This document shows, piece by piece, positions 8,422 through 10,339 of a stretch of 64,000 nt of DNA (position 1 is its first letter; every line of letters begins with the position of its first letter). Location: assembly GCA_027493935.1 (NCBI GenBank), contig JAOSJV010000001.1, positions 806,001 to 870,000 on the forward strand, given 5' to 3'. The translations under genes were made by a program, and so were the position numbers. The notes under the pieces are model-generated. The model ran no database searches. It saw only the letters and a list, made by a program, of their open reading frames with translations, and had not been told where the DNA came from. The stretch is from Burkholderiales bacterium (lineage in GTDB: Bacteria > Pseudomonadota > Gammaproteobacteria > Burkholderiales > SG8-39).

Positions 8422-8493
8422 GAAGGGCTCCTCGTCACCGGGCGGTCGGATCGTTTCGGTGGAACGCGCCGCGGTTGCGTCCGAGGCCCGCGG

Positions 8494-9325
8494 TCACTCC
8501 CGAAAGAGCGCATTGAGCTCCTGGCCGGAGGCCGCTTCGGCAAAGCCATCGAACTTGCCCTGATCGGCGATCAATCTGGCGGCGCGCATGGCGCCGCCCC
8601 AGGCCGAGCGTGCCAGCGCGCCGCCGAGGCTGATTCTCCGGACCCCGAGCGCAGCGATCTGCTGCACCGTGAGCTCGCTCGCCCAGCCCACCAGCAGGTT
8701 GAACGGCTTCGGCGCGACCGCGTCCACGACGGTGCGGATCTGATCGGACGTGCGCAGCCCCGGCGCGTACAGGCAGTCGGCGCCGGCCTGCGCGTAGGCC
8801 TTCAGCCGCCGGATGGTCTCGGCGAGATCGGGTCGGCCGACAAGAAAGCATTCGGCGCGCCCGACGAGCAGCGCGTCGCCGCCTGCGCTGTCGATGGCCT
8901 TGCGCGCCGCGCGAATCCGCTCGACGGCGACGTCGAGCTCGTAGAGCGGTCTTGCGGCATCGCCGGTCGAATCTTCGATCGAAAGCCCCCGCCACCCCGC
9001 TGTCGGTTGCGAGACGGACGTTTTCCGCGACGCCGGCCGCATCAGGCGCAAAGCCGCTTTCGAAGTCGGCATTCAGCGGCAAATCCGTCGCCGCGACCAT
9101 CTCGCGAAGATGCGCAAGCACCTTGTCACGCGACACTGCGCCATCGGATCGACCCTGCGACCAGGCGAAGCCGGAACTGGTGGTGGCAAGTGCCTTGAAG
9201 CCGAGGCTTTGCAGGAAACGCGCGCTTCCCACGTCCCAGGGGTTCGGAATGACGAAGCACCCGGCCTCGTGCAGCTCCCGAAAGGCGCGACGCTTGTCGG
9301 CGATGGTGGGACGAACGGTCGCCAT
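8494..9325 (-). CDS. Isocitrate lyase/PEP mutase superfamily protein (frameshifted)
   Basis: Starts at ATG 9325 (MATVRPTIADKRRAFRELHE) behind GGAG. The TIM-barrel motifs of the PEP-mutase branch are present: FVIPNPWDVGSAR, ALATTSSGFAWSQG, LPLNADFESGF and, after a frameshift near 8985, LSIEDSTGD. Further on come LVGRAECFLVGRPD and ADCLYAPGL. The glutamate in SIEDSTGD and the ADFESG motif suit Mg-dependent C-C or C-P bond chemistry (2-methylisocitrate lyase, oxaloacetate decarboxylase or phosphonopyruvate-type). It follows the CMD/AhpD-like gene by 10 bp on the same strand, so the two are probably one operon. Confidence 0.82.
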
Positions 9326-9335
9326 CGTGGAGCTC

Positions 9336-9884
9336 CTAGCGCTTGGGGAGAAGGCAGAAGCCCTGCGCCTCGATCCCGAGGGACGGATTGAACTTGCTGC
9401 GGAAGTTCTCCAGCGCGATCGCCGCAGTGAGCTCGACGATCTGCGGCTCGCTGAAACGCTCCTTCAGCCGATCGAACAACGCCGCGTCGACCTTCTGGTC
9501 AGTATAGGTCATGCGCTCCGCGTACTCGAGCGCAATGCGCTCGAGCACGCTGAAGGCACTGCTCCGGCGCCACTCGCCCAGGTCCGTGAGCTTGGCCGCG
9601 CCGCCGTCGATTTCCGTCACACGGACGGAATTGATGTCGACTCAGAAAGGGCAGCCGTTGATCGCCGCGACGCGCAGCGACACCAGCGCCGCCAGCCCCT
9701 TGGGCAGCGTGCCCGACTCGGCGATCGACGCGCCGAGCAGCTTCGCGGCGCGCAGGATCGGCGGGCAATGCGCCAGCACCTTCGTGGGGTTGAGCAGGGC
9801 GCCATAGACTGCGCGCTCCTTGGCGAACACCTCCGACAGGATCGGGTCGCCTTCGGGATCGTCGATTTCGCTCACTCTCGGCAC
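9336..9884 (-). CDS. Carboxymuconolactone decarboxylase/AhpD-like protein, candidate selenoprotein (in-frame TGA in the CxxC motif)
   Basis: Starts at GTG 9884, six bases after AAAGGAGC. The frame is open for 80 codons to INGCPF, then has TGA at 9644-9642. It continues without any shift through VDINSV, LERIALEYAERMTYTD and IALENFRSKFN to a TAG at 9338-9336. Total 182 codons, normal for the CMD/AhpD family. These proteins use a CxxC redox pair; here TGA (codon 81) occupies exactly the second Cys, the peroxidatic one in AhpD, giving C-P-F-U. The neighbouring genes are broken by indels, but this would be a substitution, so the usual error mode does not explain it. With the downstream hairpin, selenocysteine insertion is the best reading. 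The alternative is a nonsense mutation splitting the gene. Confidence 0.75.
9606..9641 (-). promoter_or_regulatory. Candidate bacterial SECIS hairpin just downstream of the TGA
   Basis: On the coding (minus) strand, directly after TGA, an outer stem GTCGA/TCGAC encloses an internal loop and a perfect 7-bp inner stem TTCCGTC/GACGGAA. The apical loop is CGTGT. The loop begins 18 nt after the TGA and has G at its second position. Bacterial SECIS elements have these properties: an apical loop roughly 16-37 nt from the UGA with a G among its first two bases. The hairpin lies in coding sequence, which is where bacteria place it. Confidence 0.65.
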
Positions 9885-10339
9885 GGGCGCTCCTTTGGGG
9901 ATGGTTTCCAAAGATAGCAAACACGTGCCGACGGAGAAAGAGAGATGGCAACCTTTCGGCCCGTCCTCCGGGGGGCGCCGGCAGGGGAGAGGCGCGTCGT
10001 TGGAGCGGGGACCACTGGCGACGACACGCTCGCGGATCCTCACCGGCGATTATGGACGGGTTCTGACCGGGTTCGCTTTGACTGCAGTTGCATGCGCACG
10101 AAGCGTCCCAGCGGCAACGCGAAAGCAGCGCTCCAGCACCGAGCGGAAGAAGCGGGCAACGGCACGGCGGCGCCTGCGCCGAGGCTGACGCCGACCCGCA
10201 GCGGCGTCGCGACGGGGATCGGACGCGTGCTCCGGACCGCGGGCCAGGGCTTCGGGCCGCTCGGCTTCTCCGCGAACCGCGCCGTCGCGGTCGTGCTTCT
10301 GAGCCGCCTTCCAACGCGCGCGTGCGCCCCGTTCATGTC
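9885..10339. other. Intergenic stretch, no gene seen
   Basis: Only GC-rich shadow frames lie here; none has a recognisable domain or a good ribosome-binding site. Its right part runs into a PIN-domain remnant. Confidence 0.5.

Follow-up and report, generated by a model that had tools for sequence, protein, structure and literature searches.

The window, the whole 64,000-nucleotide stretch of DNA analysed here, corresponds to G000:C1:806001-870000 in a Burkholderiales assembly of 5.19 Mb that comprises 17 contigs and is 86.6% complete. Its minus strand carries a CMD/AhpD-like gene with one in-frame TGA, which a sequence-only reading had put forward as a candidate selenoprotein gene. Translation confirmed that reading's description of a continuous frame of 182 codons opening with GTG and holding a single TGA at codon 81. 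The features of the gene are listed below, where U in motifs stands for selenocysteine (Sec) and SECIS for selenocysteine insertion sequence.

9336-9884, minus strand: CMD/AhpD-like gene of 182 codons, running from a GTG start to a TAG stop with one TGA read through
9884-9882, minus strand: GTG start
9651-9653, minus strand: codon 78, the Cys that opens the CxxU motif, without variation in alignment A2
9642-9644, minus strand: codon 81, the TGA predicted to encode selenocysteine, shared by 80/80 kept loci and L133
9612-9630, minus strand: putative bacterial SECIS hairpin of 7 pairs, with arms at 9630-9624 and 9618-9612 and CGTGT (9623-9619) as its apical loop
9354-9356, minus strand: codon 177, the Cys in the C-terminal QGFC motif, conserved in almost all rows of A2
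9338-9336, minus strand: TAG stop
9890-9896, minus strand: AAAGGAG, likely ribosome-binding site, 5 nucleotides ahead of the GTG, spotted by eye

The TGA occupies the second position of the CxxC motif, in the context AINGCPF-U-VDINSVRV of the readthrough translation. Without readthrough, the part behind the TGA is a 94-residue open reading frame and the part ahead of it forms the end of a 133-residue one. The readthrough protein matches PF02627 (Pfam CMD) at 26.7 bits, above the cut-off of 23, and is conserved on both sides of the UGA, in agreement with the family-like character ascribed to it earlier. The predicted model shows an all-helical AhpD-like fold with the CxxU motif (Cys78, Sec81) at the start of a helix. 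Superimposed on PA0269 of Pseudomonas aeruginosa (27-29% identity, root-mean-square deviation 1.4-1.6), it aligns Cys78 and Sec81 with the two Cys residues of that protein.

Codon 81 among relatives

GTDB genome contigs were scanned with six search patterns. The only one that spans codon 81 was built from the Cys reading, and therefore the scan gave TGA no advantage. The best 80 of 178 relatives, at 54-87% identity, were kept and 98 weaker ones excluded. TGA is found at the aligned codon in 80 of these 80 loci. As labelled, they belong to Betaproteobacteria, to Reyranella/Enhydrobacter/Rhodospirillales, to Gammaproteobacteria and to Rokubacteria, some metagenome bins being labelled otherwise. 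Carriers labelled as strains are Reyranella massiliensis, R. soli, R. aquatilis, Enhydrobacter aerosaccus and Vineibacter terrae. One locus (L125) has a second stop inside the matched region and another (L121) diverges from the family directly after the TGA. Two copies of the TGA gene, L067 and L072, lie on different contigs sharing the record prefix CAMDOT01, and are possibly paralogues in one bin.

Two further samples were examined. Of 149 genomes related to that of the window, 19 gave a match at E<=1e-20. Besides the window itself, this sample yielded six TGA forms at 69-87% identity (L031-L036), two more at 39-40% (L038 and L051), and 14 loci at 38-43% with TGC or TGT at codon 81. The first six probably represent the same genomes as L053-L056, L063 and L098, because their post-TGA stretches are identical. 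In L051 (genome G039) and L038 (G143) the TGA lies within a CEFU motif and is followed by hairpins of 6 and 7 pairs. A sample of 398 genomes across the phylum gave 11 matches at E<=1e-25, namely the window itself, L133 (TGA, 64% identity, a one-contig genome) and nine matches at 37-44% identity without internal stop; the eight of these that were read all have TGC or TGT, and L140 was missed by the pattern. The codon thus coincides with the second redox Cys of cousins at 37-44% identity, as the sequence-only reading had placed it. No Cys form above 44% identity was met in the genomes searched (the 80 kept loci, the 149 relatives and the 398-genome sample), and none of the 102 loci read has TAA or TAG at codon 81. 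In a tree, which omitted L121, the six duplicates L031-L036 and L133-L142, one change separates the TGA rows from the Cys rows (99/98). L038 and L051 form long branches, however, so Sec may or may not have arisen once.

Public protein entries matching the gene are mostly C-terminal fragments. Many of the hits are named alkylhydroperoxidase family enzyme, and of the best 120 of 589 listed, 107 start at the codon after the TGA according to a simple pattern, in line with the expectation that standard gene callers would split the gene. The remaining 13 comprise six more fragments starting at or past the TGA site, five longer entries with W, G, S or L in its place (P0002, P0003, P0006, P0009 and P0075), P0088, from which the region is missing, and P0117, discussed below. 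The motif GCPFC occurs in none of the best 120 of 589.

The hairpin and the selenocysteine machinery

A hairpin, TTCCGTC-CGTGT-GACGGAA, lies 12-30 nucleotides past the TGA, its loop 19-23 nucleotides past the last base of the UGA. A stem scan was run over 82 TGA loci (the 80 plus L038 and L051), using a 28-nucleotide window that starts 8 nucleotides after the T of the TGA. At this place 74 loci reach a stem score >=6 (mean 6.51). In other parts of the gene the number is 0 to 28 of 82, apart from an overlapping pair of windows with 36 and 63; among the Cys loci the figure is 3/14.

Covariation was measured over the 80 loci and the window (60 distinct sequences). In one register 81.9% of cells are paired, two-sided changes number 54 cells vs 10.5 in shuffles, and the covariation score is 0.331 vs 0.117 shuffled, the maximum on sliding the register being 0.183. 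Covariation was also measured on a subset made up of 49 of these loci together with the window (44 distinct sequences). Excluded from it were L121, the 11 loci in which the register is shifted, and 19 whose stem letters duplicate those of another locus, five of which differ outside the stem. This subset gave 96.1% paired cells, 38 two-sided changes vs 7.6, and a score of 0.410 vs 0.119 shuffled (slid maximum 0.128). Slides preserve relatedness among the sequences; shuffles do not. Covariation of this strength is as expected for a SECIS element. The same constraint is visible in the protein: Ser87 accompanies Leu90 in 26/79 loci, all of them AGC...GCTG, and Val87 accompanies Thr90 in 19/79, of which 18 read GTC...GACG and one reads GTC...GACC with its own matching base. 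These paired changes at residues 87 and 90 are as expected from selection on an RNA stem within a coding region.

All four genes of the Sec pathway, which the sequence-only reading had advised looking for, are present in the source assembly, selA in frameshifted form. Contig C11 carries selA, selB and selC in that order on the same strand. The selA matches comprise a main piece of 533.9 bits and a C-terminal piece of 28.8 bits in another frame, both matching the family; selB scores 429 bits; and selC, whose anticodon is UCA, is matched at 72.6 bits, the gathering score being 47. For selD two matches exceed the cut-off, the main one at 421 bits and a second selD-like one of 275.3 bits at G000:C10:662144-662956. 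A thioredoxin and an SDR gene near selA also look split by eye, and the splits in selA and these neighbours could be assembly indels or real decay.

Further frames of note lie beside selC. At L017:6729-7205 (minus strand), just past it, a peroxiredoxin-like frame (AhpC-TSA, 72.2 bits) contains an in-frame TGA (FYRGHW-U-PYC) and is likely to encode another selenoprotein, of UxxC type. A second CMD-like frame with an in-frame TGA (CSY-U; PF02627, 29.9 bits) is found at L017:7875-8480 (minus strand), adjoined at L017:7324-7866 by a CMD-like gene without CxxC and without internal stop (20.6 bits, under the cut-off).

The distribution of tRNA-Sec was followed in 83 genomes that carry the TGA form, made up of sets of 37 and 36, a set of 9 from the relatives of the window's genome, and G357. 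A match of >=55 bits was counted as present; the duplicates L053-L056, L063, L072 and L098 were omitted from part of these searches. It is present in 76/83 (36, 33, 6 and 1 per set), against 5/19 genomes holding only the Cys form and 57/149 of the relatives at large. The difference between TGA and Cys-only genomes has a Fisher p of 1.5e-8, a value that ignores shared descent and the differing sampling of the sets. Three genomes without a clear tRNA-Sec, G024, G039 and G210, have selB above the cut-off. In G039, the source of L051, the best tRNA-Sec match is <=46.7 bits despite 100% completeness, and G210, the genome of L121, has no match.

On the window itself, a PEP mutase/methylisocitrate lyase-like gene (8435-9325, minus strand) starts 10 bases past the stop of the TGA gene and is split, its N-terminal part lying in another frame than its C-terminal part. 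The statement that other broken genes of the window suffer indels fits this neighbour, the one other broken gene of the window examined. Searched at gathering scores, Rfam has no match anywhere on the window.

Weighing the selenocysteine reading

The conserved TGA, the covarying hairpin and the sel genes support the proposal that the gene encodes a selenoprotein. Based on these sequence data, Sec is almost certainly inserted at the UGA of codon 81, and the frame 9884-9336 (minus strand) very probably encodes a 182-residue AhpD-like CxxU protein containing it. The hairpin after the UGA likely directs the insertion. The findings named beforehand as grounds for refutation, a genome without Sec machinery and homologues with TAA, TAG or a frameshift at this place, did not appear.

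Several observations weigh against this reading. Seven of the 83 TGA genomes lack a clear tRNA-Sec, and four of them (G045, G165, G194 and G206) also lack selB above the cut-off. In G045 the tRNA-Sec match is 48.0 bits, barely over the gathering score, and counting it would give 77/83; completeness is 91 for G024, 100 for G039 and 88 for G045. The selA gene of the source assembly is split by a frameshift (L017:3200-4600, plus strand). Folding of the window hairpin as a single sequence gave no signal (z -0.10 vs shuffles), and a perfect 7-pair stem arises by chance with the same residues and codon usage in 4.7% of cases with Watson-Crick pairs only and 11.5% with G-U (2.1% and 7.0% with uniform synonymous codons). 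The case for the hairpin rests on covariation because these single-sequence tests are weak. In 11/80 TGA loci the stem register is shifted by two bases (GCATCACGTGTGATGC and the like). P0117, the only Cys form in the best 120 of 589 proteins, has CEWC at the place of codon 81 and aligns with 86% of the query at 48% identity. The two ends of this protein look like different groups, so it is perhaps a hybrid, or else possibly a Cys form of the branch. No gene partners common to the window and its relatives were found: the window is in none of the neighbour clusters of >=8 loci, and tblastn with three stretches of its neighbours gave no match in the 80 loci, each of which holds <=3 kb per side. 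Finally, the AhpD proton relay is missing from the window protein in alignment A2.

A nonsense mutation or a sequencing error, which would leave a dead gene or one truly reading TGC or TGT, is an extremely improbable account of the TGA. Broken genes do exist in the assembly (selA and the neighbour at 8435-9325), and the defects of L121 and L125 fit such decay; the two breaks examined in the source genome are, however, frameshifts and not stops. Moreover, the TGA recurs in all 80 kept loci of other assemblies, strain records included, and in L133, and this recurrence in 81 loci answers the objection of a sequencing error. It is scarcely more probable that the UGA is an ordinary stop that ends an upstream protein, the downstream half being a separate product. 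The many public proteins starting just past the TGA are consistent with gene callers handling the codon in this way. Against it, the Cys cousins match without internal stop, the break would land within the CxxU-motif helix of the predicted model, and a mere stop needs neither TGA exclusivity nor a covarying hairpin.

The W, G, S or L of the five longer public entries could be taken to mean that the UGA is decoded as a different residue, be it Trp or Gly as under codes 4 and 25 or one inserted by low-level readthrough. Perhaps the genes behind these entries were called with a different genetic code, or changed in some other way. A tRNA-Sec with a UCA anticodon, selA, selB, selD and a SECIS-like hairpin are present, and in the cousins read the TGA aligns with Cys, not Trp; decoding as another residue is accordingly very hard to credit.

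Predicted function and comparison with known systems

By analogy with the known bacterial Sec pathway, selenophosphate from SelD would serve SelA in making Sec-tRNA-Sec from Ser-tRNA-Sec, and SelB with GTP, acting on the mRNA hairpin 9630-9612, would deliver Sec at the UGA. By analogy with AhpD-like proteins, the predicted CxxU protein probably performs thiol- or selenol-based redox catalysis. The Sec81 selenolate would attack a substrate in oxidised form, of which a peroxide is the most likely and halogenated compounds are also possible. The selenenic form left on Sec81 would be resolved by Cys78, and a thiol reductant would then reduce the selenenylsulfide so made. That the substrate is a peroxide we regard as an even matter. 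A selenoprotein acting on something else, for example a Bmp8-like reductive dehalogenase or a thiol-disulfide reductase, is unlikely, though worth keeping in view.

The positions of the AhpD proton relay (Glu, His/Tyr, His) hold Ala66, Phe80 and Asn85 in the window protein. Among the Sec-branch rows of A2, Phe80 and Asn85 occur in 35/35 and Glu at 66 in 1/35. As the relay is missing, the peroxidase activity of AhpD is not transferable to this protein. Selenolates are mostly ionised at neutral pH, and an ionised selenolate would lessen the need for a relay. This link is only an idea because the Cys cousins lack the relay too, and relay loss as a consequence of Sec was set aside for that reason.

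We tentatively consider a more far-reaching scheme, which may well prove wrong. The gene would belong to a Sec-obligate AhpD-like clade, without Cys fallback or AhpD proton relay, that spans Alpha-, Beta- and Gammaproteobacteria and Rokubacteria and has Sec in every genome-encoded member read. It would carry out chemistry that Cys cannot replace, such as fast peroxide or carbon-halogen reduction, and its coding sequence would be shaped by the SECIS hairpin, two amino acids changing together and so keeping the RNA stem.

The predicted selenoprotein branch is found in about 80 genomes and appears among the best-listed public proteins mostly as a post-UGA fragment. In the genomes searched its close relatives show no Cys form, in contrast to the usual scattered exchange of Sec and Cys, and the branch is therefore well suited to asking what Sec can do beyond Cys. 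The hairpin offers a clear case of an RNA signal within a coding region shaping residues (the Val87-Thr90 vs Ser87-Leu90 groups). Strains such as Reyranella soli make the Sec prediction directly testable.

The sources cited here bear out the sequence-only reading's statement that AhpD-like selenoproteins are known from sequence surveys. CxxU members have been known since 2005: the Sargasso Sea survey lists 27 AhpD-like and 4 CMD selenoprotein sequences (PMC1088965), the GOS survey 299 AhpD-like 1 and 70 AhpD-like 2 selenoproteins (PMC2398784), and a table in a 2026 review includes CxxU AhpD-like/CMD selenoproteins (PMC13188914). The term AhpD is missing from the main text of PMC12013277 and PMC5029168, and a literature search covering running text found no description of this branch. 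The COG2128/TIGR01926 selenoproteins resemble the window protein in being CMD/AhpD-like with Sec at the second CxxC place (PMC1088965, PMC2398784, PMC13188914), and a figure legend reports a predicted SECIS for the Sargasso AhpD-like family as well. The window protein reaches 40.5 bits against TIGR01926, below the cut-off of 81.8, and the survey sequences may or may not include its branch. Within NCBIfam it scores highest, 126.8 bits across residues 3-175, with NF053654 (GroundWater_YciW, YciW-related (seleno)protein), whose cut-off of 310 is far above that. The branch members L058, L126 and L128 (125.7-150.7 bits) also fall under 310, and the distant TGA relative L051 is nearer, with 222.4 bits from a partial frame.

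PA0269 (2ijc, 2o4d, 7xw1; PMC3141380) shares the CxxC-type helix pair. It has Glu36, Tyr50, His55 and two Cys, where the window protein has Ala66, Phe80, Asn85 and Cys78/Sec81. The Cys cousins (L037, L039-L050, L052, L134-L139, L141 and L142) stand at about 37-44% identity; the five included in A2 share D83, N85 and QGFC with the window protein and likewise lack the AhpD relay. They differ in having TGC or TGT at codon 81, a hairpin in 3/14, and tRNA-Sec in 5/19 Cys-only genomes. As AhpD-like proteins with a CxxU motif date back to 2005 in the literature, the branch is a new one of a known kind. It is apparently Sec-only, and this pattern, together with the residue coupling driven by the hairpin, sets it apart.
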